Positions 5,571-34,055 of a DNA stretch of 64,000 bases are shown piece by piece. The notes under the pieces were generated by a model that ran no database searches, was not told the DNA's origin, and was given only the letters and a program-made list of their open reading frames with translations. The stretch is from a virus, in IMG/VR virus record IMGVR_UViG_3300024324_000425, positions 1 to 64,000 of that record; one strand, given 5' to 3'. The position numbers and the translations under genes are program-made. How positions within the stretch are numbered: position 1 is the first letter of the stretch; each line of letters begins with the position of its first letter.

Positions 5571-5571
5571 T

Positions 5572-6240: not shown

Positions 6241-6254
6241 AACGGAGTTATATT

Positions 6255-12436: not shown

Positions 12437-12873
12437 TATATTTAATATCGCGTATCGATGAGCAAGCACATTCCCATAATATTGCTATAGCTAACATAGT
12501 ATCGGAGGTGTATAATCATAAAGTGTTCGTGCCGCATTTGCATAACCCATATAATATACCCCACAATAAGATGGAATATAAGACGTTTAAAACTGACCTC
12601 ACTAAGATGAAAGAATCATCTATGGGCGTTATAGCATTGCCTGTAGGCAACGATTGTTCCGGAGAAATTGGATGGTTCGCTGGAAATAATAAAGCGGTTA
12701 TTGCTATTATCAAGAGCACCGAGTATATGTCTAGTGCTGACCAGATAGAATCACTTTCATCTATGTGGATGATAAAGGGATTTATTGATGAGGTTGTGGT
12801 ATTTAACGAACATGACCAATTGGTATTACTCAATGATCCTATACTTAAGGATAAGGTAACATTATGGTTATAG
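12433..12873 (+). CDS. Nucleoside 2-deoxyribosyltransferase-like protein
   Basis: A 146-residue protein with the layout of the deoxyribosyltransferase-like fold: MIYLISRID start, a central GVIALPVGNDCSGEIGWFAG block matching the usual D-x-GT-x-E-G region, and a following strand KAVIAII. Family members cleave or exchange N-glycosidic bonds of nucleosides or nucleotide-like sugars. In this island it might release a base or sugar used as substrate. Fold assignment is by motif and moderately sure; the reaction is not known. Confidence 0.6.
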   Translation: MIYLISRIDEQAHSHNIAIANIVSEVYNHKVFVPHLHNPYNIPHNKMEYKTFKTDLTKMKESSMGVIALPVGNDCSGEIGWFAGNNKAVIAIIKSTEYMSSADQIESLSSMWMIKGFIDEVVVFNEHDQLVLLNDPILKDKVTLWL

Positions 12874-13571: not shown

Positions 13572-14412
13572 AGGTGACCTTAAGGATATCAATACCTTAA
13601 AGCAGGGATATATTAGATGTTACGAACAAGAGGCAGTTCAGTGTTTTACTGAGTGGCGAAAGAATGCTGGCTGGTTGAAAGATGTTCCTATATATTGTAT
13701 TGCGTTAACCAAGAACACGATATCACAAGAAACAAAAGATATCTTTAAAGAACTTAATGTTAATTACATTGAAAAATTCTATCCTGAAACTGAACTTTAT
13801 CAAAACGGATATTGGAATATACCACTATCTGGTAAATATTTTGAAGAAGAACTTAAAGAAGACATCTTAATTAAAATTGATTTAGACATGTATCTTATTA
13901 AAGAACTGTCTAAAGAGATGTTTAATATTGAGAGAGGCACAACAACAGTTGGTAGGTATGACCCATTGTCGGCAAAACATAATACCAATAAGTTAACGTT
14001 TCCAGAAAGATATGGTCAACCATGGGATACTGGTTTAGTGATTACACACAGGGCCACTGGTTTTTTTGGAAAGTTTTATAACAAATTAAAACAAATTACA
14101 TCTGAATTTGAAGATGGCACCTTTGAGAGTTTATACGGATTACATATTAAAGAACATGACAACGATCATGGTGTTGATTATGGTGCTATCGAAGAGTTTG
14201 CGGTGTCTATCATGTACACGGATGAAGATGCCAAATTAATTCCACAATTTAAATACAACTTAGGCGAGTTTTACGCACCGATAGACATATACACAGATGA
14301 AGAAGTTCAAGAGATATACTTCTTCCATGAACATATACCACTTCAGGAGATTGGCTATGATAAATTCAAGACACGTATTGAATACTTCCATCGCATTAAT
14401 CACGGTAATTGA
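13531..14412 (+). CDS. GT-A-type glycosyltransferase-like protein, copy A
   Basis: A 293-residue protein with a KIDLDMYL segment: the D-x-D pair at 117/119 follows a hydrophobic strand, as in GT-A enzymes that bind metal and a nucleotide sugar. Start supported by GAGGAG upstream. Similar residues recur in the next gene (IALIT-IE-DL, FTEWRKNAG versus FSHWRNNAG, KNTIS, IDLDMYL), so the two are tandem duplicates. It could decorate a virion or host surface molecule; donor and acceptor are unknown. Confidence 0.65.
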   Translation: MSLSNNIALITTIEGDLKDINTLKQGYIRCYEQEAVQCFTEWRKNAGWLKDVPIYCIALTKNTISQETKDIFKELNVNYIEKFYPETELYQNGYWNIPLSGKYFEEELKEDILIKIDLDMYLIKELSKEMFNIERGTTTVGRYDPLSAKHNTNKLTFPERYGQPWDTGLVITHRATGFFGKFYNKLKQITSEFEDGTFESLYGLHIKEHDNDHGVDYGAIEEFAVSIMYTDEDAKLIPQFKYNLGEFYAPIDIYTDEEVQEIYFFHEHIPLQEIGYDKFKTRIEYFHRINHGN

Positions 14413-15190
14413 ATCTGATCTAATTAATATAGATTCTAATAATACACATAACACTAGGCTATTTGAAAGAGAAGCTATATTGTCGTTTAGTCATTGGCGT
14501 AACAATGCTGGAATATATAAAGATATTCCCATATATGCAGTGTGTATTACAAAAAATACTATATCAAAAGATACTAAAGATAAGTTTAAAGAATTAAATG
14601 TAACTTATATTGAAAGTTATCAAGCGGTCACAGAGTCGTTTGATTGTGGGTTTTATAATAAACCACTAGGATGTAAGGTGCTTGAAGAGACCTTAACAGA
14701 AGATATATTAATTCATATAGACTTGGACATGTATTTAATGAGAGAGCCTACCATACCTTTCAAAAATGCATGCATGGTATATGATACACACCAACTACAT
14801 AAAGAACGTATACATAAAAACGGTGAGGTGATAGACACATATAACACATGTTATATGGTTACTAAACGCAAAGATAAGATATTTTCTAAGTGGTGGGATA
14901 AACTAAAACAACTTGATGAGGATTACATATTAGATCGTAGTGAGTTTGATAAACTATATGATAACCTAGAGTATAGAAAATTAGAAGAGTTGTCGTTTGA
15001 TTTATTATCATTAGACATAGAGATTTACAATATACCAAACTCTTTGTTTGGGGAGACATATACCCCATTAGCTAGTATGAATAAATTAGAATTGAATAAT
15101 ATCACCTTTCACCACTATCACATATATACATCATTAGTTGAGTACAACTGGTTTGCTGGATATAGGGAATACACAAAATGTTTTCTTTAA
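14357..15190 (+). CDS. GT-A-type glycosyltransferase-like protein, copy B
   Basis: A 277-residue paralogue of the upstream gene with IHIDLDMYLM (D-x-D at 122/124). I place the start at ATG 14357: a CAGGAG site ends seven bases before it, and the N-terminus then aligns with copy A. This gives a 56-nt overlap with copy A. An ATG at 14297 would add 20 unrelated residues. The 3' end overlaps the next radical SAM gene by 13 nt. Confidence 0.65.
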   Translation: MINSRHVLNTSIALITVIESDLINIDSNNTHNTRLFEREAILSFSHWRNNAGIYKDIPIYAVCITKNTISKDTKDKFKELNVTYIESYQAVTESFDCGFYNKPLGCKVLEETLTEDILIHIDLDMYLMREPTIPFKNACMVYDTHQLHKERIHKNGEVIDTYNTCYMVTKRKDKIFSKWWDKLKQLDEDYILDRSEFDKLYDNLEYRKLEELSFDLLSLDIEIYNIPNSLFGETYTPLASMNKLELNNITFHHYHIYTSLVEYNWFAGYREYTKCFL

Positions 15191-15942
15191 AAATCCCTAA
15201 AATGATGTGTGTGCCAATAACAGACAAGTGTCATTTGCGATGTGGGTTCTGTTATAATAGTAATGATTATTTCAAAACAGCTAAGCACATGGATATTGAT
15301 GAGTTTAAGGATATTGTTGATTGGCTCATATCAGAAGGAATATCTTATATTGATATAACCCCTGCGGTGGGAGAAGCTTTGTTAATCCCAAACCTTCATG
15401 AATTTCTGGACTATTTAGATAACTCGAGTATTGATAAGTATTTATTAATTACATCACTGGCTGTTAAAGATATATCAGTATTAAAGGATCGTCATAAAAT
15501 AGATATAGAGGTTAGTTTATATGGGGAAAACGCAGAACAATATATAAAAACCACTGGGAGGGATGTGTTTGATTTGGTCTTACCCAACATTAAAGAATTG
15601 ACTAAAGATGGTATTACTATATTAAAACGCTTTAAAGAGCCTATAACATCAACAGATCTTCGACTAATAACGAAATTCGATAATGTGAAGTTAGTTGATT
15701 ATAGTGATGATCGCGGATTAGAGTATGCATCAAAAACTGGGGAAGTACGAGAGTGTGTGTTCATGAAAGAACCTTTGGTTACTAAGCGGGGAATTAGTTT
15801 GTGTTGTAAGGATCATAAGATTGAGGACTTGGTTATTGGTCAGGTTGGTGAAAGTCTAAAAGATATATATAATAACATATCAATAGATGATGTCAAGTGT
15901 TCTATTGAATGTGATTGGTTTATAGATGCATCCACAGATTGA
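15178..15942 (+). CDS. Radical SAM protein no. 6 (short)
   Basis: A 254-residue radical SAM protein with CHLRCGFCYN (Cys 18, 22, 25). The GGEP position reads AVGEALL, an unusual variant. C-terminal cysteines (ECVFM, SLCCKDH, KCSIEC) are followed by LVIGQVGESLKDIY, reminiscent of SPASM-type ends. It is smaller than the other five. It overlaps the next gene by 17 nt. Confidence 0.83.
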   Translation: MFSLKIPKMMCVPITDKCHLRCGFCYNSNDYFKTAKHMDIDEFKDIVDWLISEGISYIDITPAVGEALLIPNLHEFLDYLDNSSIDKYLLITSLAVKDISVLKDRHKIDIEVSLYGENAEQYIKTTGRDVFDLVLPNIKELTKDGITILKRFKEPITSTDLRLITKFDNVKLVDYSDDRGLEYASKTGEVRECVFMKEPLVTKRGISLCCKDHKIEDLVIGQVGESLKDIYNNISIDDVKCSIECDWFIDASTD

Positions 15943-16384
15943 TCCAACTGAACATGATCTTATAATAAGATTCTTTGGAATTGATCCAACCTCCAATATA
16001 CTTTCTGGAAATCTTAATCTGGGAACAAGCGATTTTAGAAATATAATAGACTTCTATAGGTTTGAATATAAAGATAGAGAAGCTGCGTTTTGGGATGTTG
16101 TATATCCAAAATCGTTGTTATATCCTAATATAGAAATACCTATTACAATGACACGTGTGGCATTAGATTGGGTTGATTATGTTACAAAGGTTGATGTATC
16201 ATATACTATTGATGATAATAAACTTATAATGAATACCTCCCCACAAGGTGATCGGTATAATAAAATGTTACAACTGATATGTTGTATGATATTTGTATCA
16301 GATTTTAATAATATGAGTGATGATAAAAAATATATAGACACGAGTGCGGCTTGGCTGATTATAATGAAGATAGCAAATGAATAA
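15926..16384 (+). CDS. Hypothetical protein
   Basis: A 152-residue protein (MHPQIDPTEHDLIIRFFG) with no motif I recognise; its C-terminal half is hydrophobic-helical with two adjacent cysteines. It overlaps radical SAM no. 6 upstream and the aminotransferase-like gene downstream, so it is co-expressed with both. Confidence 0.6.
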   Translation: MHPQIDPTEHDLIIRFFGIDPTSNILSGNLNLGTSDFRNIIDFYRFEYKDREAAFWDVVYPKSLLYPNIEIPITMTRVALDWVDYVTKVDVSYTIDDNKLIMNTSPQGDRYNKMLQLICCMIFVSDFNNMSDDKKYIDTSAAWLIIMKIANE

Positions 16385-16982
16385 CCATGAATTTATAAAG
16401 ATGTTTGAGGATGAGTTGAGTACCTACACCGGTGCACCTTATGTAGTCCTTACAGACTCATGTACTAATGCGGTGTTCTTAATGTTAAAGTATCTAGATA
16501 TACAAACCACTATTAGTATTCCAAATCATACGTACATCTCTATCCCCCAACAGATTATACATGCTGGAGGTTGCGTCGAGTGGAATACTGAAGAATGGAT
16601 AGGTTCTTATAATTTAAAGAATACTCCTATCTGGGATAGTGCTGTCGGGTTCCATAAAGATATGTACATTAAAGATCAATTCATGTGTTTATCATTTCAA
16701 CAAAAGAAAGCATTACCCATTGGAAAAGGAGGAGCTATTCTATTATCCAAAAAAGAAGATTATGAAATTCTTAAACGAATGGCATGGGATGGAAGAGACG
16801 CTTCTGTATCTGTTGAAAGGGATATAAATAATATTATACTAGGATATCATATGAACATGACCCCTAATGATGCGGTTAATGGATTATTACTACTTAATCA
16901 ATTTACCGCGGTAAAGGATAATCAGGGATGTTGGTTAGACTACCCTAACTTAGACGTAACAAAAGTAAATGGAGAAACATAA
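16377..16982 (+). CDS. Short DegT/DnrJ/EryC1/StrS-type aminotransferase-like protein
   Basis: PLP-dependent sugar aminotransferases of this family add an amine to keto-sugar nucleotides. Present here are TDSCTNAVFLML (the cofactor phosphate-binding region), IPNHTYIS and SFQQKKALPIGKGGAILL, the segment that carries the Schiff-base lysine (Lys 110 or 111). The product is only 201 residues against about 370, missing the C-terminal half, and the usual His before the lysine is absent. It may be a degenerate or single-domain relative; activity is uncertain. Confidence 0.7.
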   Translation: MNNHEFIKMFEDELSTYTGAPYVVLTDSCTNAVFLMLKYLDIQTTISIPNHTYISIPQQIIHAGGCVEWNTEEWIGSYNLKNTPIWDSAVGFHKDMYIKDQFMCLSFQQKKALPIGKGGAILLSKKEDYEILKRMAWDGRDASVSVERDINNIILGYHMNMTPNDAVNGLLLLNQFTAVKDNQGCWLDYPNLDVTKVNGET

Positions 16983-17648
16983 ATGGATAAAAATCCAAAT
17001 CGAACGTGTTGTGATGATGGCAAGTGCTATCGCCATGATGTAATTAATAAGCTGGAGAGTGAATTTAATATTATTGAAGCACTTGATGAACTAGAATGGG
17101 GATATACTCACACGTTTGTATTCATCGAAGATAAGCTATACTATTACAAACCTGAACTTATATCACAAATCGCGGCGGATGCTGCTATATGGGATGAGTC
17201 TTATACAGGAGACTTTAAAGCTTCGGTTGATGAGATATCATCATTGTTAAATCAAGAAGTAATATTGACTGATGTTTATAGTAAATTAGATGAGTATATT
17301 AGAAGTGGTATTAACGGGATGCCAACATTCATTGAAGAGACTGAGAGTTTCTTAGTATTTGCGGATCCGAAGGCTGAGGTGATGCCTGTTGATGAGTGGA
17401 AAAATAATCTATTGAATATTAAAAATAGTTTCAGTGATGATATTAATCCATTGTTAGAAGTGTTTGGTGATAATGAGCTTTATATAAAGGGTAACCAAGT
17501 ATATTGCTATGATATACTAGCCTTTGAAAATAACACTAATGGTAAGTTAGGAGTATTTAGTGAGGCTGATGATAAAATAGTGTTTAGTGCATTTGGCGAG
17601 TTAGATCCAACACAAGCTAAAGTCGTGGATCTGCTTAAAGAGTTATAA
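16983..17648 (+). CDS. Hypothetical protein with Cys-rich N-terminus
   Basis: A 221-residue acidic protein. The first 20 residues contain TCCDDGKCYRH, a compact Cys/His cluster that could bind metal or be a modification site; the rest is an ordinary acidic helical/beta protein with no known motif. A GGAGAAA site precedes the ATG. It lies between the aminotransferase-like and epimerase genes. I cannot assign a function. Confidence 0.6.
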   Translation: MDKNPNRTCCDDGKCYRHDVINKLESEFNIIEALDELEWGYTHTFVFIEDKLYYYKPELISQIAADAAIWDESYTGDFKASVDEISSLLNQEVILTDVYSKLDEYIRSGINGMPTFIEETESFLVFADPKAEVMPVDEWKNNLLNIKNSFSDDINPLLEVFGDNELYIKGNQVYCYDILAFENNTNGKLGVFSEADDKIVFSAFGELDPTQAKVVDLLKEL

Positions 17649-18533
17649 ATGAATATATTATTATTAGGCGGTGCCGGTTTTATTGGTACCCATTTAGCCA
17701 AACGGTTAAAAGGTGAAGGACATAACATAACAATCATTGATTCGTTGAGCACATCAGTATCTCCGGATTATGGTGTTAACTTTATTAAAGGCGATGTGGC
17801 TACAATGGATTTAGATATCCAATTAATGGAAGCTGACTTAGTATATTACTTGGCAGGATCTGTTGGAGTAGAATACATTGATAAGAATCCATCAAGCACT
17901 CTATTCAATAACATTGACTTAATGACTAAGTTAATCCCTGCCTTTGAAAGAGCACAAACAAAAGTAATATTCTCATCCACTTCTGAAGTATATGGTGAAG
18001 GACCTTTCAACGAAGACAACGCATTAAGTATTGGTTCCCCTAATAAATTAAGATGGGGTTATGCTTGTGCTAAGTTAATGACTGAGTTCATGATAAAGGC
18101 TTCTACATTCCCATCGGTTATTGTAAGATTCTTTAATGTAGTGGGACCTGGTCAATCCGCTGATTATGGTATGGTCCTACCTAGAATGGTAGCGGCGGCA
18201 AAGACCGGACAAAACTTAATTATATATGGCGATGGCAAACAAGTTAGATCATTCTGTCACATCAAAGATGCTATTGATGCTCTTATATTATTACAAGATG
18301 CTGAGGGTATATACAATGTTGGTAATGATACCCCCTCAACAATGAATGAGTTAGCAACGGCTGTATTAAGAGAAATAGCCACAACATCTAATATGAAGTA
18401 TCGACCTTATGAGAAAGATTTCTCTAAAGAACATGGTGATATATACTATAGGGTACCTGATATTACTAAGCTTAAAGAGCTCGGGTATGAACCTAAATAT
18501 GATTTGAAAGATATTATAAGAGATATGTTATGA
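17649..18533 (+). CDS. NAD-dependent sugar epimerase/dehydratase
   Basis: A 294-residue extended short-chain dehydrogenase. GGAGFIGTHLA (residues 7-17) binds NAD; SSTSEVYGEG and the catalytic Tyr-x-x-x-Lys (Tyr 138, Lys 142 in WGYACAK) follow, then RFFNVVGPGQ, all typical of UDP-glucose 4-epimerase or dTDP/GDP-sugar dehydratase relatives. Length is only slightly short. It probably interconverts a nucleotide sugar used by the island's transferases. It overlaps the next gene by 4 nt. Confidence 0.85.
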   Translation: MNILLLGGAGFIGTHLAKRLKGEGHNITIIDSLSTSVSPDYGVNFIKGDVATMDLDIQLMEADLVYYLAGSVGVEYIDKNPSSTLFNNIDLMTKLIPAFERAQTKVIFSSTSEVYGEGPFNEDNALSIGSPNKLRWGYACAKLMTEFMIKASTFPSVIVRFFNVVGPGQSADYGMVLPRMVAAAKTGQNLIIYGDGKQVRSFCHIKDAIDALILLQDAEGIYNVGNDTPSTMNELATAVLREIATTSNMKYRPYEKDFSKEHGDIYYRVPDITKLKELGYEPKYDLKDIIRDML

Positions 18534-19177
18534 AGATAGTTTTTATATTTGCTCATCCAGATGATGAAGCGTATGGACCTGCTGGTACTATACACAAGTT
18601 AGCTAACGCTGGCCATAGTGTATCGGTGGTTGTTATGTGTAAAGGTAATAGGCCTGGTGCTGAAGAAGTATGTGATGATAGAATGGAAGCCTTTAAAAAG
18701 AGTTGTAGTTCATTAGGGGCTACAGGAACTATGTTCTTAAACAACGATTGTAAGTTAAAGTATGGAGAAACTCTTAAACAAATAGAAGGAGTTATTAACG
18801 ATCTTCAACCAGAAGTAGTGTATACTCATAATATATCTGACATTCATAAAGATCATAGGTTAGTTGCAGAGTGTGTAATAGTAGCTACTAGGCCGAAGCC
18901 TGAGTCATCTATTAAAGAATTATATATGTGCGAGATCCCAGCATCTACTGATTGGGCATTTGGTCAATTAGGTGAGGCATTCCAACCTAATGTTTATAAA
19001 GATGTATCAATGGAAATATATAAGAAGCAACAGGTGATGGGATATTATGCAACAGAAGTATATGAATATCCAGATGCTAGATCAATTGAAAGTATGGAAA
19101 CTTTAGCGATGTATAGAGGTAAGACTGTTGGCATGCATAGAGCTGAAGCGTTTAAGCAGGTATATCGACTCGACTAG
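18530..19177 (+). CDS. LmbE/PIG-L family zinc deacetylase
   Basis: A 215-residue N-acetylglucosaminyl deacetylase-like protein. The AHPDDEAYGPAG motif near the N-terminus and HNISDIHKDHR further on supply the zinc ligands and catalytic Asp. The family removes N-acetyl groups from sugar conjugates. With the epimerase, aminotransferase-like and amidinotransferase-like genes it could prepare a free amine on a sugar. Its 3' end overlaps the convergent minus-strand deacetylase by 26 nt. Confidence 0.82.
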   Translation: MKIVFIFAHPDDEAYGPAGTIHKLANAGHSVSVVVMCKGNRPGAEEVCDDRMEAFKKSCSSLGATGTMFLNNDCKLKYGETLKQIEGVINDLQPEVVYTHNISDIHKDHRLVAECVIVATRPKPESSIKELYMCEIPASTDWAFGQLGEAFQPNVYKDVSMEIYKKQQVMGYYATEVYEYPDARSIESMETLAMYRGKTVGMHRAEAFKQVYRLD

Positions 19178-19664
19178 ATCCATAGAAGTCAGTGAAACCA
19201 TAAGGCTTTAAAAGACCTGCATATAAACCATCTAGTTCTTCGTTGTAAGGAAAACAAAATGATGTTGGTATATAATCTAATTCTTTCTTAAACCACGCTA
19301 GCATAAGTTCTGTATCTTCTTTGATATGTTTAACCTTATCAACTAACTTAGGGATTTTAGATACATCTTTATGATAATGGGAATGGCCACCTATCTCTAT
19401 ACCCATATTGATTATCTCTTTGATTTGATCAATAGTCATATAGTTTTCAGTATTACCTTTAAACGCCTTTACATGAGCACTACGACAATCAATAAACTCT
19501 TCTGATTGTTTACCCCTACATATTATATTAGACGAGATAAAGAATATCTTATCATTAGGTAAGTCTTTACCGTATAGATACTGAGAGTATAGACCATCAT
19601 CAAAGGTACACAATCCCTTTGGTATATTAGTGTCTTCTTTCATTTCGTGTATCATTAATACCAT
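19152..19664 (-). CDS. Polysaccharide deacetylase (NodB-like), the only clear minus-strand gene
   Basis: A 170-residue protein with CTFDDGLYSQYL (the metal-binding Asp pair) and GGHSHYHKDV (metal-binding His residues), the core motifs of NodB-homology carbohydrate deacetylases. It is shorter than a typical NodB domain and lacks a signal peptide, so it should act in the cytoplasm on a sugar or conjugate. It is convergent with the LmbE-type gene. Upstream on the minus strand lie a TATAAT at 19701-19706 and a GGTAGG stretch, a plausible separate promoter. Its reversed orientation suggests later acquisition. Confidence 0.78.
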   Translation of the reverse strand: MVLMIHEMKEDTNIPKGLCTFDDGLYSQYLYGKDLPNDKIFFISSNIICRGKQSEEFIDCRSAHVKAFKGNTENYMTIDQIKEIINMGIEIGGHSHYHKDVSKIPKLVDKVKHIKEDTELMLAWFKKELDYIPTSFCFPYNEELDGLYAGLLKPYGFTDFYGSSRVDIPA

Positions 19665-19729
19665 AATCTATCTATATCCTACCTTTCAGGCCATTCTTAT
19701 ATTATACACCATATATCATTTGTAATATG

Positions 19730-19737
19730 TATAAATA
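19730..19737 (+). promoter_or_regulatory. Late promoter TATAAATA before phoH-like gene
   Basis: An exact late-promoter box in the gap between the divergent deacetylase gene and the phoH-like gene, 28 nt before the TTG start. Confidence 0.7.
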
Positions 19738-19765
19738 AGTAATATAGTTTAATTTAAGGGTATCC

Positions 19766-20467
19766 TTGAGCAAAAAGAAAGTAGCCCCCAGTGCATTAGC
19801 ACTGATGAACAAGCAACACTTTGAACTACAGGATGCAGAACCACTTAACGGTAAGCAACATGAATTCTTTGCTAATTACGCCGGAGGTAAGTCCCAAGTC
19901 CTAGCAGGTTCTGCTGGTACTGGTAAAACCTTTATGACATTGTTTAAAGCATTTGAAGAGATATTAAAGGCTAAGGTTAATTACCGAAGGATAGTTATTA
20001 TTCGTTCGGCGGTTGCCACTAGAGACATTGGTCATCTCCCAGGAACCTTAGAGGAGAAGCAGGCCATTTATGAAATACCTTATGTTGGTATTTGTAATGA
20101 GTTGTTTGGACGTGGTGATGCGTATGCTTTAATGAAGAAGAATGGTATCATCGATTTTATGCTTACTTCTTATGTTCGTGGTATAACTCTTGATGAGACT
20201 ATTGTTATTGTTGATGAGTTTCAAAACTTAACAGCACACGAAGCAGATTCAATCATTACTCGTTTAGGTAAGGGTTCAAAGATTATATTTTGTGGTGATA
20301 CATGTCAAACAGACTTCACCAGAAACAACGAAAAGGATATTGATAAGTTCCTTGCTGTAGTAAATAGAATGCCACAATGGTTTGATATTAACGAATTTGA
20401 ATCAGGTGATATTGTACGAAGTGGTATTGTTAAGGAATACATTAAGACAAAGGAGAGAATGGGATGA
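19766..20467 (+). CDS. phoH: PhoH-like ATPase
   Basis: A 233-residue P-loop ATPase of the PhoH family: Walker A GSAGTGKT (48-55), then IIRSAVATRDIGHLPG, Walker B IVIVDEFQN and the downstream IIFCGDTCQTD. The start is TTG at 19766. The family is common in marine phages; its role is unsettled, with links to RNA metabolism and phosphate stress in hosts. It overlaps the next gene by 4 nt and begins the late block after the island. Confidence 0.9.
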   Translation: MSKKKVAPSALALMNKQHFELQDAEPLNGKQHEFFANYAGGKSQVLAGSAGTGKTFMTLFKAFEEILKAKVNYRRIVIIRSAVATRDIGHLPGTLEEKQAIYEIPYVGICNELFGRGDAYALMKKNGIIDFMLTSYVRGITLDETIVIVDEFQNLTAHEADSIITRLGKGSKIIFCGDTCQTDFTRNNEKDIDKFLAVVNRMPQWFDINEFESGDIVRSGIVKEYIKTKERMG

Positions 20468-20676
20468 TTAATTTTAAAGAATTAAGAGAAGCCAAAGGCA
20501 AATCTAAGAAAGAAATTAAAGAGGTCGCTCAAGACGAGTTGATGCATAGTTTAGCTAATGCATTTTATGGTGATGAGGCTAAAGATAAAGCTGTATTTGC
20601 TGAAATGGATAAACAAATGAAACGTATTGAAAAGCTATTTGGGTATAAGCCTGGGTCTTGGCGTAGAGGTGGTTAA
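20464..20676 (+). CDS. Small protein with capsid-targeting-like N-terminus
   Basis: A 70-residue basic protein starting MINFKELREA. The (L/I)-x-E before Ala at residues 7-10 fits the cleavage rule of the T4 prohead protease gp21, and the stretch has the length and placement of the T4 internal-protein targeting peptide (MKTYQEFIAEA). I infer an internal head protein packaged with DNA and trimmed during maturation. It shares this N-terminus with the genes at 21192 and 21423. Confidence 0.65.
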   Translation: MINFKELREAKGKSKKEIKEVAQDELMHSLANAFYGDEAKDKAVFAEMDKQMKRIEKLFGYKPGSWRRGG

Positions 20677-20677
20677 T

Positions 20678-20764
20678 ATGGAAGTTGTTACATTGTTACC
20701 ATATATTAATGGCGCACTAATGATGGCAACGTGTGATTGGTCTCCTTGGATGTATTGCGTTTGA
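20678..20764 (+). CDS. Possible 28-residue peptide
   Basis: A short ORF, start ATG behind AGAGGTGG, encoding a Trp-, Met- and Cys-containing peptide (MEVVTLLPYING start). It is followed by a late promoter for the next gene. Coding status rests only on the ribosome site and fit into the gap. Confidence 0.3.
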   Translation: MEVVTLLPYINGALMMATCDWSPWMYCV

Positions 20765-20780
20765 TCCAAAACATAAAAGA

Positions 20781-20788
20781 TATAAATA
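20781..20788 (+). promoter_or_regulatory. Late promoter TATAAATA
   Basis: An exact box 26 nt before the ATG at 20815, in a gap between genes. An AAAGGG ribosome site lies between box and start. Confidence 0.7.
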
Positions 20789-20814
20789 ACTATAACATAT
20801 AAAGGGATTGCCCT

Positions 20815-21195
20815 ATGAAAGAGAAGGTAGCATCACTAGAGACTAAAATGGCTCTATTACAAAGTGATATAAATACTATTAAGAACAGGGAACCTCAATT
20901 ACCAGAGTGGCTTAGAAATTCTGCAATTATAGTTCTTATGGCTATGTTTGGTCAGATTGTTACTGCGGTTTGGTGGGCGTCAAGTATGACCGCTAATTTA
21001 GAGCACATTAACAATGATGTGGGAATGAACACCGAGTTTAGAATATCATATCCAAAGATGCATGCAGAAACTATGGTAAGTTTACACGGGCTAAAGAAGG
21101 ACGCAGAGCATACCGGGGCTATGGTTAAAGACATTAAAAGCAAGTTAAAATTTATTGATATAAAGGATCAAAGGGATCAAAGGAACACAAAATGA
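20815..21195 (+). CDS. Membrane-anchored coiled-coil protein
   Basis: A 126-residue protein: an N-terminal heptad-like stretch (residues 1-25), one transmembrane segment (about 36-58, AIIVLMAMFGQIV core) and a long charged helical C-terminus. The layout resembles phage lysis accessory or membrane-tethered proteins, and also the protein at 35789. A perfect extended late-promoter sequence lies in its coding region at 20868. Function unknown. Confidence 0.6.
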   Translation: MKEKVASLETKMALLQSDINTIKNREPQLPEWLRNSAIIVLMAMFGQIVTAVWWASSMTANLEHINNDVGMNTEFRISYPKMHAETMVSLHGLKKDAEHTGAMVKDIKSKLKFIDIKDQRDQRNTK

Positions 21196-21419
21196 AAACA
21201 CTACAACAAATAAGAGAAGCATCAGGCGACAAAGAAGCATACCAAAAGTTCTTTCAAGGGTTATTAAAGAAGTTCGGCGTTAAATCACCTGCAGAATTAG
21301 ATGATGCAAAGAAGAAGGAATTCTTTAATGCTATTGAAAAGGGTTGGGAAGGTAAATCTGAAGAGCTTGAAACATATAAGAAAACTTTAGAGGCTTGTGA
21401 TCACGAGGAAGAGGAGTAA
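21192..21419 (+). CDS. Small protein with capsid-targeting-like N-terminus
   Basis: A 75-residue charged helical protein starting MKTLQQIREA, close to the T4 internal-protein targeting peptide (MKT..., then (L/I)-x-E before Ala). Predicted cleavage after Glu 9. It overlaps the upstream gene by 4 nt; the next follows after 3 nt. Likely a packaged internal head protein, by analogy. Confidence 0.65.
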   Translation: MKTLQQIREASGDKEAYQKFFQGLLKKFGVKSPAELDDAKKKEFFNAIEKGWEGKSEELETYKKTLEACDHEEEE

Positions 21420-21422
21420 GTA

Positions 21423-23189
21423 ATGATTAATTTTAGTGCGTTAAGAGAGGCATTTAATGCTTCTTTAATAAAAAAAGCTTGTGCCATTGCTAACTCAAAG
21501 AAGTTTAAAGATGGTGATTATGACCATGCTTATGCTGCTATTGAGAAGTTAAAGAAAGGTTTAGCTGATGAGCCTAAAGTTGCAGCATGTTTAAAGAAAG
21601 CTAATGAATCAATAGCCTTAGCAGAAGATGACCTTGAGGAAGGTGTAGCAGTTGATATGCGAACTAAAGGTTATAAAGAAGCTATCGCAAGAGGCCTAAG
21701 TAAAGAAGCTAAAAAGAAATTAAAAGCTGAGAATTCTAAGACTTTACAAGATGCTAATAACGCTTTACTAGGTAAGAACGAAAATATGACTGCTGGTGGG
21801 AATGATTCAACTGGTCCTATCGCAGGCCATGATAAACCATTAAGTAAGAAAAAGAAAATCATGAAGCGCAAAGGATTTAAAGAATCCATTGAACTTGAAG
21901 AAGTGTTCAACCAAGCTCAAATGAAAAAAGCTATTGGTATTGCACGCAAATCAAGAGGTAACTATGACAAAGCCTATGCTGAAATCGAAAAGATTAAGAA
22001 AGGTTTAGGTGATGAAGATATTATTGCTCATGTATTAAAGAAAGCCAATGAGTCAGTTGAAATTGAAGAAGGTTCAAATGGACTTGAAATTCAAGAAAGT
22101 GTAAACTTTAAGGCAATGTCTGATAAAAAATTATTAGACTGGATTAAAAAGAATGATACTGAAGACAGAGTAACACCTGTATTTGCTCGAATGATTTTAA
22201 CTGCTTATAAAGAAAAGAGACGCAGAAAACTGAAGACTGAAGAAGCATACGACAGAGGTTCTATTCGTGATTTTAAAGTTGGTGATAAAGTAAAATTCGT
22301 AGATGATAAATCTAGTCACCATGGGCAAACGGGAAAAATAACTAAATTGATTGGTGGTATTGGCGCAAGACAAAAAGCTCATGTTAAATTAGATAAAACA
22401 AAGAAAACAGTAATTGATATTTTAACATCAACTGATTTAATTAAAGAATCAGTTGAAGAAGCAGTTTCAATGAAAAATGCAAAAGGTATTGGTTTTGGTA
22501 AGAAAGGTGGATACGATAAGTATGTAACACTTGCTAAGAAGAAAAATGCTAAATCATATAAAGATGTATTGAAAGTATTATCACGTGAAGGTTTAGGTAA
22601 AGAAGAACTTGACAATGTTGCCGATTATGTAATGAATGCTTTAGGTGAGTCTGTTGACTTCTCATTAGAAGATGATTCTGGTTTACGAGATATGATTACA
22701 TATACACAATTAATGGAAGGCGCTAATGTTAAATCAACTATGTCTGATTTAAACAAAAAGATGTCTTTACTAAAGACCGATGTTAAGGGTGGAAACATTA
22801 ACGATATTATCACAAGATTGACGTCAATTGAAATCTTCATGGGCAAGGCAATAAAAGATTTAAACAAACTTGTTAAAGAATCAGTTGAACTTGAAGAAGC
22901 AAAAGGCAGTGATTGTACTATTCAGAATGATGGTAGAAATAACATCGCTGTATGTATTGATGGTCTTTCATTTGCTGATGCTCGTAAGGGTACACGTGGC
23001 GCTATGATGAATATTGATGGCTTTAAAAAGAAAGCTAAAGTTGCTTATGCAGATTCTAAAGGTAAACCTACTATCCCAGCTGTTAAGAAAGAAATCAAAG
23101 CATTAGGGGCTAAGAACTTCTATGCTAAATGGCAAGCGGATTCATCATCTTATAAAGACGATTCGGTAAAGATCTGGTTCACTAAGTAA
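21423..23189 (+). CDS. Large internal head protein candidate with repeats and a KOW-like segment
   Basis: A 588-residue Lys/Glu-rich protein starting MINFSALREA. Two related helical repeats sit at about residues 14-63 and 165-211, each ending LKKANES. Residues 284-345 contain FKVGDKVKFVDD and a GQTGKI turn like a KOW/SH3 nucleic-acid-binding domain. Six internal sites fit the prohead protease rule: LEE/G 73, IEE/G 216, IQE/S 225, IKE/S 342, LME/G 432 and LEE/A 492, mostly at domain junctions. I infer a packaged precursor cut into pieces during head maturation. The last base overlaps gp13. Confidence 0.6.
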   Translation: MINFSALREAFNASLIKKACAIANSKKFKDGDYDHAYAAIEKLKKGLADEPKVAACLKKANESIALAEDDLEEGVAVDMRTKGYKEAIARGLSKEAKKKLKAENSKTLQDANNALLGKNENMTAGGNDSTGPIAGHDKPLSKKKKIMKRKGFKESIELEEVFNQAQMKKAIGIARKSRGNYDKAYAEIEKIKKGLGDEDIIAHVLKKANESVEIEEGSNGLEIQESVNFKAMSDKKLLDWIKKNDTEDRVTPVFARMILTAYKEKRRRKLKTEEAYDRGSIRDFKVGDKVKFVDDKSSHHGQTGKITKLIGGIGARQKAHVKLDKTKKTVIDILTSTDLIKESVEEAVSMKNAKGIGFGKKGGYDKYVTLAKKKNAKSYKDVLKVLSREGLGKEELDNVADYVMNALGESVDFSLEDDSGLRDMITYTQLMEGANVKSTMSDLNKKMSLLKTDVKGGNINDIITRLTSIEIFMGKAIKDLNKLVKESVELEEAKGSDCTIQNDGRNNIAVCIDGLSFADARKGTRGAMMNIDGFKKKAKVAYADSKGKPTIPAVKKEIKALGAKNFYAKWQADSSSYKDDSVKIWFTK

Positions 23190-23998
23190 TGGCAAAGGTA
23201 ACCAGCAGGCCTGAATTAATCGATCATTGCATGAGGGCATTAGGTGCCCCTGTGCTTGAGATTAATGTTGACGAGGATCAAGTAGAAGATAGAATTGATG
23301 ATGCCTTACAGTATTATCAAGAGTATCATTCTGATGCTGTTGTTCGCGCTTACTTTAAACACCAGTTAACTGCTGATGATATAACTAATAGCTATATTGC
23401 TATACCTGATTCTATCACTTCAGTCACTAAGATATTAGATATGAAGAGTGGTGAGTCTGAAGCTATGTTTAACGCTGAATATCAAATGCGTTTAGCCGAT
23501 ATGAATACTTGGGGAATGCAAAGTTCTATCCAAGTGTTTGGCCAGAAGATGCAACACCTTGCTTTATTAGATCATCAACTGAATAGCTCTGAGCTACTTA
23601 GATTCAATCGTCATATGAATAGACTATATGTTGATGAAGGCTTTGGTAGTCTTCAAGCGGGTAGTTGTTCTATTATTGCTCATACCACTAAAACTGCTTG
23701 TGAAGCGGCAAGTGGTATATGGACAGAAGCGGGTTTCATAATCATTGAAGGTTTTGAAATTGTTGATCCACAAACATACTCCGATGTATATAACGATATG
23801 TTCTTAAAGAAATATTGTACAGCTCTTATTAAAAGACAATGGGGTGCTAACATGAGTAAGTTCGAAGGTATGCAATTACCTGGTGGAGTTACTATGAATG
23901 GTCTTCAAATCTTTCAAGATGCTGTTGAAGAAATTAATAAATTAGAAGAAGAAATGGCTTTGGCTTGGCAGATGCCGGACGACTTTATTATGGGTTAA
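23189..23998 (+). CDS. 13: Neck protein gp13-like
   Basis: A 269-residue protein resembling T4-type gp13. The N-terminal block RPELIDHCMRALGAPV, then INVDEDQVEDRIDDALQYY and the C-terminal TALIKRQWGANMSKFEG are family features. gp13 and gp14 form the head completion/neck that closes the portal after packaging. The ATG overlaps the upstream stop. Confidence 0.88.
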   Translation: MAKVTSRPELIDHCMRALGAPVLEINVDEDQVEDRIDDALQYYQEYHSDAVVRAYFKHQLTADDITNSYIAIPDSITSVTKILDMKSGESEAMFNAEYQMRLADMNTWGMQSSIQVFGQKMQHLALLDHQLNSSELLRFNRHMNRLYVDEGFGSLQAGSCSIIAHTTKTACEAASGIWTEAGFIIIEGFEIVDPQTYSDVYNDMFLKKYCTALIKRQWGANMSKFEGMQLPGGVTMNGLQIFQDAVEEINKLEEEMALAWQMPDDFIMG

Positions 23999-24003
23999 AC
24001 ACT

Positions 24004-24933
24004 ATGGCAACTTCAGTATATTTTTCAGGCTCGGTAAAAACTGAACAAGAACTCTATGAGGATTTGATCACCGAGTCTATGCAGATTTATGGACAAGATA
24101 TTGTTTATATACCCCGCCAAGAAATTAGTAAGGACGAGATCCTTAATGAATCCTATTCAAGATTTACAGACTCTTATGTAGTTGAAATGTACATAGAGAA
24201 TGCTGATGGATTTGAAGGTGATGGAGATCTATTAGCTAAGTTTGGTTTAGAGATTAGAGATCAAGCAACATTTATTGTTGCTAAACGCAGATGGCAAAAG
24301 CAGGTTGGCAAATGGTTATCAACAGCTCAAGGTGAATCGGATTCATTTAGACCTATGGAAGGAGATTTGTTATATCTTCCAATGTCTAAGAGTATCTTTG
24401 AAATCAAGTTTGTTGAACATGAAATGCCTTTCTATCAATTACAGAACTTACCTGTATATAAATTACAAGCTGAATTGTTCGAGTACTCAGATGAAGAGTT
24501 TGATACTGATATAGATACTATTGATCAAATAGAAACCCTTAATGCTACTTCATATACATACACACTAACTACTGGTACAGGTACATATAAGATTGGTGAA
24601 ACTGTTACACAATGGACCGGTGTTAATGATGCTGGTGGTTTACCTATTAATATCGAAGGTGAAGTTGCTGCTTGGGAAGATTTAGGTTTGTCTACCGGTA
24701 ACCTAACCGTGGTATCACTTAGCACTACCGATGGCGCCTTTAGACAATTATATGTTGATGCTGATATAACTAAACAGGTTATTGGTACAGAATCAGGAGC
24801 TACATACAATGTGTTAATTGCTGATACTGCCACTAATTACAACAGAGACGAATATGCTGCTAATGATATATTCGAAACAGAAGCTGATGGTATTATAGAC
24901 TTCTCTGAAACTAACCCATTTGGAATGCCATAA
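24004..24933 (+). CDS. 14: Neck protein gp14-like
   Basis: A 309-residue homologue of T4-type gp14, partner of gp13 in the neck. Recognisable are TEQELYEDLITES near the N-terminus, IYGQDIVYIPR and FGLEIRDQATFIV. The start is set at ATG 24004, 5 nt after the gp13 stop, where the family N-terminus begins; an in-frame start 39 nt upstream would overlap gp13. Confidence 0.88.
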   Translation: MATSVYFSGSVKTEQELYEDLITESMQIYGQDIVYIPRQEISKDEILNESYSRFTDSYVVEMYIENADGFEGDGDLLAKFGLEIRDQATFIVAKRRWQKQVGKWLSTAQGESDSFRPMEGDLLYLPMSKSIFEIKFVEHEMPFYQLQNLPVYKLQAELFEYSDEEFDTDIDTIDQIETLNATSYTYTLTTGTGTYKIGETVTQWTGVNDAGGLPINIEGEVAAWEDLGLSTGNLTVVSLSTTDGAFRQLYVDADITKQVIGTESGATYNVLIADTATNYNRDEYAANDIFETEADGIIDFSETNPFGMP

Positions 24934-25661
24934 TGTTTTCTGATCATTTCTACAATTCAAGCACAAGACGGATGGTATCCGTGTTCGGATCAATGTTCAA
25001 TAACATATCTGTTGAAAAGACTGATAGTGCTGGTAAAGTGTTACAACATATTAAAGTACCATTAGCCTATGGCCCGAGACAGAAGTTCTTATCAAGAGCT
25101 AAAGACTTAGATGACACTAAGATTGCTATTAAGTTACCACGTCTTTCATTTGAAATAACTGATATGACATATGATGGTCAATCAAGAATTAATAAGAGTA
25201 ATAAATATGTTAAGGTTGATCCATTAGATAAGAAGAACGTTACTGCATTGGGTGCACCCGCTGTATATAAAGTGGGGTTTGAGTTAAACATTATGACTAA
25301 GACTCAAGATGAAGCATTACAAATCTTAGAGCAAATCTTACCTATGTTCCAACCAGACTATACTGTTACGATTACAGATATACCTGCGATGGAAATCAAG
25401 TCAGACGTTCCTATTGTATTAACTGGTGTAGGGCTTAATGATGAATATGAAGGTGACTTCTTAAGCAGAAGAACTATTGTATATACTTTGTCATTTGAAA
25501 CACGTATACGTTACTATAAAGGTATTCAGAAACGCGGTATTATTGATAAGACAGAAGTATACTATAAAGATACAGATTCAAGAGAGAACATGGAAGTACA
25601 AAAGGTTGATGGAACAACCCTACCATATACGGAGACAATCGACTTTTTTAATGAACCGTAG
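24933..25661 (+). CDS. 15: Tail completion and sheath stabiliser gp15-like
   Basis: A 242-residue protein of the gp15 family (HFYNSSTRRMVSVFGSMFN start, then VPLAYGPRQKFLSR and RLSFEITDMTYD). gp15 caps the finished tail and joins it to the head neck. It overlaps gp14 by one base and precedes the terminase genes in standard T4 order. Confidence 0.9.
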   Translation: MFSDHFYNSSTRRMVSVFGSMFNNISVEKTDSAGKVLQHIKVPLAYGPRQKFLSRAKDLDDTKIAIKLPRLSFEITDMTYDGQSRINKSNKYVKVDPLDKKNVTALGAPAVYKVGFELNIMTKTQDEALQILEQILPMFQPDYTVTITDIPAMEIKSDVPIVLTGVGLNDEYEGDFLSRRTIVYTLSFETRIRYYKGIQKRGIIDKTEVYYKDTDSRENMEVQKVDGTTLPYTETIDFFNEP

Positions 25662-25673
25662 GACATATATTAT

Positions 25674-26018
25674 ATGAGTGATAAAGATTTAAATAATGAT
25701 TATGAAAAGATAAGAAAGTCTCTTTATGATTTAACCGATCAAGGTGATGAAGCTATTGAGCTCATGATGGAGCTTGCTAGGGAATCTGAACATCCACGCG
25801 CATTTGAAGTGCTCGGCCAACTAATCAAACAAAATGCAGAGATCAGTGAAAAGATCTTAAAGATGCATAAGACCAAAAAAGAAGTAGAGAAGGTAGATAC
25901 TCCAGCCTTAGATGCTGCCGGGTCAATAACTAATAACAATGTGTTTATTGGATCTACTGCTGACCTACAGAAAATGCTACATGATGAGAAAGTGATTGAT
26001 GTCGAACCAAGCCAGTAA
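25674..26018 (+). CDS. 16: Terminase small subunit gp16-like
   Basis: A 114-residue mainly helical protein with a coiled-coil-like centre, as in T4-type small terminase, which stimulates the large subunit and helps select DNA for packaging. The assignment rests on size, helical content and its position between gp15 and gp17, with 20 nt overlap into gp17. Confidence 0.82.
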   Translation: MSDKDLNNDYEKIRKSLYDLTDQGDEAIELMMELARESEHPRAFEVLGQLIKQNAEISEKILKMHKTKKEVEKVDTPALDAAGSITNNNVFIGSTADLQKMLHDEKVIDVEPSQ

Positions 26019-31483: not shown

Positions 31484-31675
31484 ATGGATATTAAAGATTT
31501 AATTGATGACATTGGTAAAGGTGATGCCCAAGCATCTAATAACACATTTAATAGTATTGTGTTAAGCAAGATGAATGTGGCTTTAGATGCTCGTAAAGAG
31601 GTAATCGCTAATGACATGTATGGTTCTAATGAGCCAATTAACACAGAGGAACCTAAGGCAGATGCTAACATTTAA
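31484..31675 (+). CDS. Prohead core protein, gp67-like by position
   Basis: A 63-residue protein (MDIKDLIDDIGKGDAQ start) with NTFNSIVLSKMNVALDARK, a pattern found in small core proteins of marine T4-like phages. It lies between portal and protease, where T4 has gp67 and gp68. It overlaps the next gene by 14 nt. Confidence 0.65.
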   Translation: MDIKDLIDDIGKGDAQASNNTFNSIVLSKMNVALDARKEVIANDMYGSNEPINTEEPKADANI

Positions 31676-31901
31676 ACAATCATTTAATACTTTATTAGAA
31701 AGTAAAATGAAATTGCCTAAGGGCGAGACTATAGTAAAGGAGATTAGCAAGCTTGGCAAGAGCAAAGATGTTAATGCTCTTATTACTGGTAAGGCCAACA
31801 AGTTTATTCTATACGTAGATGAAACTAAACTAGATACTTTTAAATCAGTTAAAGATGCTGAAAAAGGTCTTAAAGAATTTTTAAAGGTAATGGGAGTATA
31901 A
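31662..31901 (+). CDS. Small prohead core protein candidate
   Basis: A 79-residue basic protein starting MLTFKQSFNTLLES; LLE/S at 11-14 fits the prohead protease cleavage rule. I set the start at ATG 31662 (GAGGA upstream); an ATG at 31611 lies deep in the previous gene. Position suggests a gp68-like core role. Confidence 0.6.
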   Translation: MLTFKQSFNTLLESKMKLPKGETIVKEISKLGKSKDVNALITGKANKFILYVDETKLDTFKSVKDAEKGLKEFLKVMGV

Positions 31902-31902
31902 C

Positions 31903-32121
31903 ATGAATTTACATGAAGCTAGTATAGATCTATTAGAAGGTAAAGCAGAAGGTCAAATAATTAGTAAAATGCTTACTATGACTAAGGCTTTAATGAAAGA
32001 AGTAGATAAGTTATCTAAAATTGATAATGGTGATTTGCATGATCAAATTACTAATATGGATCATTTTACTACAAAATTACGTGATACAATTTTAAGAGCA
32101 AATAAGGTAAACCCTAAGTAA
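31903..32121 (+). CDS. Small prohead core protein candidate
   Basis: A 72-residue helical protein starting MNLHEASIDLLEGK, with two sites (LHE/A at 5, LLE/G at 12) matching the prohead protease rule. GGGAG precedes the ATG. It overlaps the next gene by one base. Role inferred from context. Confidence 0.6.
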   Translation: MNLHEASIDLLEGKAEGQIISKMLTMTKALMKEVDKLSKIDNGDLHDQITNMDHFTTKLRDTILRANKVNPK

Positions 32122-32357
32122 TGAATATTAACGAAGCATACACCAGTATTAATGCTGTTGTGTTAAACGAGAAGTTTGACGAGAGGAAAGCTGAGGTAAC
32201 ACTTAAAGACTTGAAAATGGTATATGGTCAAGCTAAAATGATTGGTGCTAGTAAGGCTGCACAAGACGAATTAAAGAGAGTTTACTCAAGATTAGTGAGT
32301 GATTGGTTTGGTCATAATGAAGCTGGGAAACGTAAAATACCAACGGAGTTAAAATAA
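32121..32357 (+). CDS. Small prohead core protein candidate
   Basis: A 78-residue protein starting MNINEAYTSINAVVLNEK, with INE/A at residue 5 as a possible protease site. Basic C-terminus. It sits one base before the protease gene and is the last of four small genes between portal and protease. Function inferred from position only. Confidence 0.58.
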   Translation: MNINEAYTSINAVVLNEKFDERKAEVTLKDLKMVYGQAKMIGASKAAQDELKRVYSRLVSDWFGHNEAGKRKIPTELK

Positions 32358-32358
32358 T

Positions 32359-33015
32359 ATGAAGTTAATAGCAGAATATACAAATGAAGGTTTAGGTTAC
32401 TCGATTACTGAAGGAAAGAATGGTAAGAAAGAAACTTATATCGAAGGAATTTTTATGCAAGCGGAAGGCAAGAATAGAAATGGACGAGTTTATACTCGCG
32501 AAGTCCTTACTGCTGCAGTGGATAGATACAACAATGAACAAGTAATGACCGGTAGAGCCGTAGGTGAATTAAATCACCCAGAAGGCCCTTCGATCAACTT
32601 AGATAAAGTTAGTCACAGAATTACAGAACTTAAATGGAACGGTAATAATGTGATTGGTAAAGCACTAGTGTTAGATACTCCAATGGGTCAGATCGTAAAA
32701 GGTTTGGTCGAAGGTGGTGTTCAACTTGGTGTTTCAAGTCGTGGTATGGGAAGTTTGGAAAATAGAAATGGTGTTAGCTATGTGAAAGATGATTTTATGC
32801 TTTCAACTGTTGACATCGTGCAGGATCCATCAGCACCTAATGCATTTGTAAATGGCATTATGGAAGGTGTTGATTGGAAAATGGATGGCACAGGTCATTA
32901 TATCCAAACAATTGAAGAAGGTGAGACTGAAATGATGGAAACAGTAACAGAAGAAGTGGTGGATAACACTGCATCTGAAGTTACTGGATTTGAGCATTTC
33001 CTCTCTAAACTATAA
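32359..33015 (+). CDS. 21: Prohead maturation protease gp21
   Basis: A 218-residue serine protease that trims scaffold, core and capsid proteins at (L/I)-x-E. Likely catalytic residues are His 74 (GELNHPE), Ser 127 or 128 (GVSSRGMGS) and Asp 157 (DIVQDPSAPNAF). Its own N-terminus has ITE/G at 16-19, a possible self-cleavage site. It precedes the scaffold gene as in T4. Confidence 0.92.
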   Translation: MKLIAEYTNEGLGYSITEGKNGKKETYIEGIFMQAEGKNRNGRVYTREVLTAAVDRYNNEQVMTGRAVGELNHPEGPSINLDKVSHRITELKWNGNNVIGKALVLDTPMGQIVKGLVEGGVQLGVSSRGMGSLENRNGVSYVKDDFMLSTVDIVQDPSAPNAFVNGIMEGVDWKMDGTGHYIQTIEEGETEMMETVTEEVVDNTASEVTGFEHFLSKL

Positions 33016-33035: not shown

Positions 33036-34055
33036 ATGTCAGAAGAAATTAAAGACATCGCTGAAGAGGTTATTGTTGAGGAAACTAATACAGAAGTAGA
33101 AGCTCCCTTAACAGAAGCTCGTACGATATCTGCAATTAATGCATCTTTACAAGAAATGAATAAAGATGAATTGGATGCAATCTTTGAAGCTGCTGAGAAA
33201 GCTAAAGCGAAAGCTAAAGTTGAATCGGAAGATGAAGATGAAGATGAAGATGAAGACGGTGATGACGAAGAAGGTGAAGTAGAAAACGAGAAGAAAGAAG
33301 CTAAAGCTAAAACTAAGAAGGAGTCTAAAAAGGACAAATTCAAAGAAGATATTGATGCACTTGCCAATGGCGAAGATTCATTATCAGAAGGTTTTAAGGA
33401 TAAAGCATCTATAATCTTTGAAGCTGCGTTACAATCAAAAGTGGCTACGACAGTTGTTGAATTAGAAGAGCGTTATGCATCTGATTTAACTGAAGAAGTA
33501 GAAGCTATTAAAGAAGACTTAGTTGATAAGGTAGATGGTTACCTTAACTACGTTGTTGAGAATTGGATGACCGAGAATGAAGTTGCTATTGAGCACTCTC
33601 TTAAGTCTGAAATCACAGAGTCATTTATCAACGCATTACATGGCGTGTTTGTTGAACACCACATCAATGTACCAGAAGATAAGGTTGAAATTGTTGATGC
33701 CTTAACTGAAGAAGTAACTGATGCTAAAGATCAATTGAATGCAAGTCAAGAAGCTAACATGGAATTATCAGAGAAAGTTAAAGCTTTCGAACGTAAGTCT
33801 ATCGTTGCTGAAGCATGCGAGGGTTTAGCTGCTACTGAAGCTGCAAAATTAACTGAATTATCAGAAGCTATTGAAGCTGAAGACAATTCTGATTTTGCTT
33901 CTAAAGTCGCGACAATCAAAGAGTCTTACCTTAACAAAGACGAAACACAAGTTGATGTATCGGAAATCGATGCAATCAGCGAAGAAAGTGAAAAAGCAAC
34001 GGTATTAAGTGATTCAATGCAATCATACTTATCAGCTATTTCATCTACTAAATAA
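33036..34055 (+). CDS. 22: Prohead scaffold protein gp22-like
   Basis: A 339-residue very acidic, helical protein with a long Glu/Asp run (residues 66-78) and coiled-coil segments, as expected for the main scaffold core. LTE/A at 25-28 fits the protease rule, consistent with gp22 being degraded during maturation. An AGGAG site precedes the start. Confidence 0.85.
   Translation: MSEEIKDIAEEVIVEETNTEVEAPLTEARTISAINASLQEMNKDELDAIFEAAEKAKAKAKVESEDEDEDEDEDGDDEEGEVENEKKEAKAKTKKESKKDKFKEDIDALANGEDSLSEGFKDKASIIFEAALQSKVATTVVELEERYASDLTEEVEAIKEDLVDKVDGYLNYVVENWMTENEVAIEHSLKSEITESFINALHGVFVEHHINVPEDKVEIVDALTEEVTDAKDQLNASQEANMELSEKVKAFERKSIVAEACEGLAATEAAKLTELSEAIEAEDNSDFASKVATIKESYLNKDETQVDVSEIDAISEESEKATVLSDSMQSYLSAISSTK

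Follow-up and report, generated by a model that had tools for sequence, protein, structure and literature searches.

Introduction

The internal proteins IPI, IPII and IPIII and the protein Alt of phage T4 begin with a short capsid-targeting sequence (CTS), which a review describes as 10-19 residues long, and the rule for cleavage by the prohead protease gp21 is given there as L/I-X-E. We analysed a 64,000-base window, bases 1-64000 of the virus record IMGVR_UViG_3300024324_000425 (79,560 bases in total), in which three genes at 20464-23189 begin with peptides of this kind. As far as the published accounts drawn on here describe the T4 proteins, the likeness lies in the short N-terminal CTS ending in L/I-X-E, in the presence of a gp21-family protease in the same genome and in small, mostly basic products that vary between relatives. 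The difference is that each T4 internal protein has its own gene and its own CTS, whereas here one CTS precedes about eight modules with internal sites. We consider it likely that the three genes encode head cargo and that the largest, of 588 amino acids (aa), encodes a polyprotein which is cut by gp21 and whose modules are exchanged between phages as cassettes.

Other described systems share parts of this design. The T4 core proteins gp22, gp67 and gp68 carry many gp21 sites per chain. The polyvalent proteins of phages and plasmids join 2 to 15 domains in one chain and are thought to be delivered with the DNA, and the proteolytic release of their domains has been likened to viral polyproteins (Iyer et al. 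2017, PMC5512222); in the portion of that paper drawn on, their peptidase is embedded and their domains are known enzymes, whereas here a separate prohead protease is the predicted cutter. In the ejection proteins of SPN3US and phiKZ the prohead protease cuts after Glu at X-x-E, in some of them at multiple sites, but the extra cuts described lie in propeptides that are removed, while here they would fall between modules. The protein T4-GC190 of the T4-like cyanophage S-SM1 has a CTS-like start, is reported in virions and has a homologue at 68363 of the present record; neither a polyprotein nor shuffled modules are described in the sections of that report used here. Cargo with a CTS, prohead-protease substrates with several sites and phage effectors with several domains have each been published separately. 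A multi-cargo polyprotein with shuffled modules cut by the head protease was not found in searches of the open PubMed Central (PMC) literature; subscription papers and preprints, which lay outside that search, may describe one.

Three genes with T4-like targeting peptides

The contig is that of a marine T4-like phage, with gp13, gp21 and gp22 identified through PHROGs and gp22 and gp23 through Pfam. PhoH was also identified in the record; the labels gp14-gp20 used below rest on gene order and resemblance between loci only. The open reading frames (ORFs) central to the analysis are as follows, with isoelectric points given as pI.

20464..20676, plus strand: 70-aa predicted cargo gene with the CTS MINFKELRE; a predicted cut at Glu 9 would leave a basic mature part of pI 9.5, starting after that residue
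21192..21419, plus strand: 75-aa predicted cargo gene; CTS MKTLQQIRE; phrog_28651, E 3e-9
21423..23189, plus strand: 588-aa putative polyprotein gene; 64.9 kDa, pI 9.4; starts MINFSALREA
21423..21449, plus strand: CTS MINFSALRE of the 588-aa chain, predicted cut after Glu 9
32359..33015, plus strand: gp21-type prohead protease, the predicted cutter; Peptidase_S77, PF03420, E 5.1e-43
33036..34055, plus strand: gp22-type scaffold, a known kind of gp21 substrate; PHROGs and Pfam; second in the motif ranking below

The original prediction had read three genes starting MINFKELREA, MKTLQQIREA and MINFSALREA as internal proteins with T4-like targeting peptides and gp21 sites. All three are present, and each has a targeting peptide closing with (L/I)RE-A. 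The start pattern M-x(3-8)-[LIVF]xE[AGS] was found in 5 of 149 ATG ORFs of at least 50 aa on both strands of the window, the three cargo genes lying within 1 kb. A looser form of the pattern was seen in 15 of 99 plus-strand ORFs of the whole record against 4.3 expected, and part of these 15 are evidently chance matches. The targeting interpretation is supported by the N-termini, by the gp21-family protease in the contig and by a contig-wide motif ranking. As an account of three internal proteins the prediction was incomplete, since it overlooked the sites along the whole length of the 588-aa product, which is probably a polyprotein of about eight modules.

Sites and modules in the 588-aa chain

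After the CTS, the chain carries in order DDLEE-G, ESIELEE-V, ESVEIEE-G, KTEE-A, ESVEE-A, LME-G and ESVELEE-A. Predicted cuts after these Glu residues divide it into eight modules of 56-96 aa each, designated M1 to M8.

21450..21641, plus strand: M1, residues 10-73; ends LEE-G; folds in the AlphaFold2 (AF2) model
21642..21902, plus strand: M2, residues 74-160, basic; ends ESIELEE-V; in 15 loci, often near the C-terminus
21903..22070, plus strand: M3, residues 161-216; second M1-family copy, ends ESVEIEE-G; folds in the AF2 model
22071..22244, plus strand: M4, residues 217-274; ends KTEE-A, outside L/I-x-E
22245..22460, plus strand: M5, residues 275-346; ends ESVEE-A
22461..22718, plus strand: M6, residues 347-432; buried MITYTQLME-G at its end (apparent former gene start)
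22719..22901, plus strand: M7, residues 433-492; ends ESVELEE-A; opens the polyprotein of locus L011
22902..23189, plus strand: M8, residues 493-588; alpha/beta in the AF2 model

The motif L/I/V-x-E-A/G/S occurs 10 times in the chain, compared with a mean of 1.99 in shuffled sequences, and none of 20,000 shuffles reached 10. Four of the ten matches are Glu-Ser sites (IQES, IKES, LGES and VKES); three of these stand at the front of ESV linkers whose far end is another site, which gives some linkers two possible cuts. When the 65 ORFs of at least 150 aa in the record were ranked by motif excess, the 588-aa chain came first, followed by gp22 and gp21. As a control, the same ranking of 23 annotated head-region genes of T4 gave the order gp22, gp21, gp23 and gp67; gp22, gp23 and gp67 are gp21 substrates in print, and gp21 also cuts itself. 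The codons of the linkers are biased as well: Val is GTT in 26 of 27 cases against 101 of 180 elsewhere, and Ser is TCA in 19 of 27 against 71 of 169. This bias fits shared linker DNA, although the counts are not independent and we do not lean on it.

The MITYTQLME-G buried at the end of M6 is identical to the N-terminus of the L011 polyprotein, and in locus L120 an internal MKTFESLRGELTE-A stands ahead of its M8. These buried CTS-like stretches resemble the starts of one-time genes, such as a fusion of separate genes, each with a CTS, would leave behind.

Module order in related chains

Relatives of the 588-aa chain were found in sixteen IMG/VR loci, here given L-numbers; L023, L110 and L120 are among those that came from additional scans. 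The order in the window is M1-M2-M3-M4-M5-M6-M7-M8. In locus L004 M4 is missing, and the unit ahead of M8 resembles M7 only distantly, at 40% identity. The order in L011 is M7, M6, M3 and M5, with other units between and after them. In L023 a unit of its own is followed by M6, M3, M5 and an M8 relative; two other units separate M6 from M3, two more separate M3 from M5, and one stands between M5 and the M8 relative. An automatic split of eight polyproteins merged M5 with M6 and left L004 unsplit there, and serves as a rough map only.

The shared modules are nearly identical in DNA between the window and L011 (M5, 100% over 207 nt; M6, 100% over 198 nt; M3, 99.4%; M7, 99.0%). The proteins of head and tail genes, by contrast, differ widely, with identities of 38% for gp19, 46% for gp20 and 56% for gp21; for gp18 the identity is 46% over the full length to L014 and 56% over part to L011. 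Between L003 and the window, DNA identity is 95.5% in the cargo stretch as far as window position 23658, inside gp13, and 72.6% in the stretch after it. Comparison of seven polyproteins yielded 39 shared blocks with 47 distinct starts and 53 distinct ends. A site lay within 3 residues of 39 of the 47 starts and 46 of the 53 ends, against a background of 13.3% of all residues; because the pairs are related, these counts represent an effect size and not a p-value.

Could the shuffled orders have been created by metagenome assembly across short, near-identical repeats? The close relatives of the polyprotein are all on uncultured contigs, and the shared modules, at about 200 nt and up to 100% DNA identity, are of a size at which assemblers can switch. 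Nevertheless, the complete chains keep open frames of 509-779 aa, and the arrangement of the window recurs in L002 and in L003, where it is 98.7% identical in DNA beside a gp13 that is only 80% identical. The L011 arrangement is seen again over the stretch covered by L014, with L014's own substitutions, and more distant phages share the design with divergent modules. We therefore regard an assembly artefact as very improbable.

Breadth of the design

With a profile of the M1 family, at least 207 places were confirmed in 600 candidate stretches, and 80 of these places were retained. A site is found at the module start in 47 of 67 distinct contexts compared with a background of 10%; it is present in 14 of 16 contexts following an N-terminal start and in 33 of the 51 that are internal to a chain. 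In the loci compared, 27 distinct ORFs have at least two ES[VIL]-type linkers, some of these ORFs being partial copies of one another. The same design with divergent modules is seen in L044, L048, L064, L038 and L091.

These data bear on whether the chain is packaged uncut, as a multi-domain protein resembling the polyvalent proteins, with the acidic ESVELEE stretches as flexible linkers only. Chains of many domains have been described, as noted above. Repeated acidic linkers are also known from other modular proteins. The linkers here, in contrast, repeat the L/I/V-x-E-A/G pattern of the N-terminal CTS site, phages differ in whether the same module start comes after a CTS or after an internal linker, and the chain ranks alongside gp22 and gp21 for the motif. 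No Pfam domain above cut-off and no embedded peptidase was found in the 588-aa chain. We judge an uncut chain quite unlikely.

The phage records in which the M1 module was found are the four of Melnitz and that of one further phage, C48C1. A megablast of window positions 18001-26000 gave no close relative among phage records, the sole matches of a tblastn with the whole chain were in the four Melnitz records and were due to M1-type sequence, and a search of phage records with M5 gave no match. Melnitz is a cultured OM43 phage. Two of its genes, 18 and 20 (L018 5993-7945 and 8210-9598), have CTS-like starts on multi-domain genes, and one of the two matches a cytidylyltransferase and DUF5824. 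Packaging and cutting are therefore testable on an isolate.

A pattern scan of genome contigs gave two relatives from 306 pattern matches, both apparently phage contigs within metagenome-assembled genomes (MAGs). One, L129, is a 106-kb contig in a Gammaproteobacteria MAG; it is T4-like and encodes, upstream of its gp13-like gene, a related polyprotein. It is probably a binned phage and perhaps hints at the host.

Gene position and charge compared with the T4 core genes

T4 keeps its core genes 67 and 68 between genes 20 and 21, and only in L011 does the polyprotein gene lie in that very place. Together with the many sites per chain of gp22, gp67 and gp68, this raises the alternative that the polyprotein is a filler of the prohead core, whose gp21-chopped pieces leave before DNA packaging and have no role in the host. 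The 588-aa gene of the window, however, is located between phoH and gp13, and gp22 and small ORFs occupy the usual place. The gp22 of the contig is strongly acidic (pI 4.2), whereas the chain is basic, with six of its eight modules above pI 8. In addition, the modules are discrete, reused in other orders and partly folded, and the N-terminal CTS of the chain is common to single-enzyme cargo genes. We consider a core filler unlikely.

The small ORFs between gp20 and gp21 are listed below.

31484..31675, plus strand: 63-aa acidic ORF, gp67-like by position and charge only
31662..31901, plus strand: 79-aa ORF, core protein or cargo; LLE-S near the N-terminus
31903..32121, plus strand: 72-aa ORF, core protein or cargo; LHE-A and LLE-G near the N-terminus
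32121..32357, plus strand: 78-aa ORF with INE-A close to its N-terminus; L010 has a similar ORF of 75 aa at 6213-6440

The genes at 31662, 31903 and 32121 had been predicted to carry related sites. Such sites exist (MLTFKQSFNTLLES, MNLHEA...LLEG and MNINEA, respectively) but they are weaker than those of the cargo genes, and the genes at 31662-32357 may encode head-core proteins instead of effectors.

Structure predictions and points against the polyprotein

Several observations weigh against our interpretation. The AF2 model of the whole chain, built from 19 rows, was poor, with a mean predicted local distance difference test (pLDDT) score of 43.2, and only three of the eight modules were compact. 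Ten-residue blocks scored 62-84 in M1 (about residues 10-62), M3 (163-209) and M6 (363-408), and the predicted cut sites scored 26-50. Modelled alone, M8 adopted an alpha/beta fold at pLDDT 81.5 in one of five models; since the other four reached only 46-48, this fold is tentative. A fold search with the M8 model returned nothing convincing (Foldseek gave at best E 0.75 against PDB and E 0.24 against BFVD, and VIA-align at best a Z of 2.8), and a sequence search of solved structures gave one match at E 0.44 for M8 and nothing better than weak matches for M1. Searches of Pfam, PHROGs and PADLOC gave no function for any module.

The site data are also imperfect. L/I-x-E fits neither KTEE-A, where M4 meets M5, nor a stretch of M6 that reads ESVDFSLED, the M1-family module start is without a site in 20 of the 67 contexts, and the block boundaries were counted in related, non-independent pairs. 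The motif ranking was mixed in Melnitz, where 50 genes of at least 150 aa in two stretches of the genome were compared: an annotated tail fiber tied with gp21 at 0.008, the CTS-bearing cytidylyltransferase gene was third and gp22 fifth. Both gp21 cleavage and virion packaging of the 588-aa protein are predictions from its sequence. Finally, among the virion data reported by Sullivan et al. (2010, PMC3037559), T4-GC190 is undetected in S-PM2.

Neighbouring genes and other targeted cargo

A second cluster of CTS-like genes lies past the window in the same record, at 64183-69184 (L132 1183-6184).

64183: CTS-like gene with a Zeta_toxin match; MHNFKSFLGE-G
65096: CTS-like gene without family; MKSFKSFDLVE-A
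66488: CTS-like gene without family; MKNLNE-A
66806: CTS-like gene, DUF6267; MIKFKSHLTE-A
68363: CTS-like gene, CTP_transf_like; MIHGFKEHYLTE-K

The DUF6267 protein of L010 has relatives in 409 phage records, mostly cyanophages. The cytidylyltransferase T4-GC190 of S-SM1 starts MKKFSAFLNE-A and is homologous to gene 68363. Sullivan et al. (2010, PMC3037559) report its detection in virions of S-SM1, which is the sole experimental support and bears on the neighbouring kind of cargo rather than on the polyprotein.

The 70-aa protein had no convincing family match in PHROGs or Pfam; we regard a Cas10 match with E 0.001 and 15.5 bits as due to chance. No known internal-protein family was matched in PHROGs or Pfam, a search that did not include direct comparison with T4 IPI, IPII, IPIII and Alt. 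In L011 the 75-aa module and an M1 module are joined in one protein, and in L048 the 75-aa module lies within a longer chain; similar stretches are at L105 2977-3162 and L106 1153-3963. It resembles stretches of Vibrio and Tenacibaculum phage proteins annotated as DNA ligase, as well as sequence in Erwinia and Pseudomonas putida phages, with 63 records in total at E 0.01.

Between the first and second cargo genes sits one gene without a CTS.

20815..21195, plus strand: 126-aa predicted membrane protein; phrog_26926, E 2e-26

Its relatives lie near polyproteins in L010 (13650-14024) and L110 (5097-5468), and the protein, which has a WWAS stretch, recurs near cargo genes in different phages. Upstream, window positions 2556-19177 hold many genes in succession that have CxxxCxxC at their starts, judged by eye to be radical-SAM-like, together with one epimerase-like and one deacetylase-like ORF, likewise judged by eye. 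This gene content is unusual for a T4-like phage between the tail and neck genes.

Proposed mechanism and significance

We propose that the short N-terminal CTS would draw each cargo protein into the prohead core, after which gp21 would remove it. In the 588-aa protein, one CTS would bring in a chain of eight modules, from which gp21, cutting at the L/I/V-x-E linkers, would release about eight individual proteins of 6-11 kDa in equal numbers. The freed modules would stay with the DNA, with which the basic character of the chain and of most modules fits, and would be small enough to exit through the portal and be injected. Recombination at or beside the linkers would swap modules between phages as cassettes, so that the cargo set changes fast. 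Such rapid exchange suggests variable host targets, for example defence systems as for T4 IPI, and by this analogy a role of the cargo modules as effectors against variable host targets or defences is plausible. The sequences themselves show the anatomy of the chain, its excess of sites, the shuffled modules, the block boundaries that fall on sites and a gp21-family protease on the contig; packaging, cleavage, injection and effector role are what we infer for the polyprotein.

A broader idea, to which we give somewhat less than an even chance, is that marine T4-like phages maintain an array of cassettes within a single reading frame, in which the linker is at once a head-protease site and a joint for module exchange. 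One CTS would then package interchangeable mini-effectors, to be delivered in equal amounts together with the DNA, and phages with widely differing core genes would share one module pool.

If the proposal is true, the N-terminal rule and the linker rule together would predict, among the proteins of marine T4-like phages now annotated as hypothetical, many that are injected, and the modules would form a pool of candidate host-takeover or anti-defence proteins that comes ready-divided. The chain would also show how nature can load a capsid with many small proteins by one targeting signal, and would be a case in which protease sites coincide with recombination joints.

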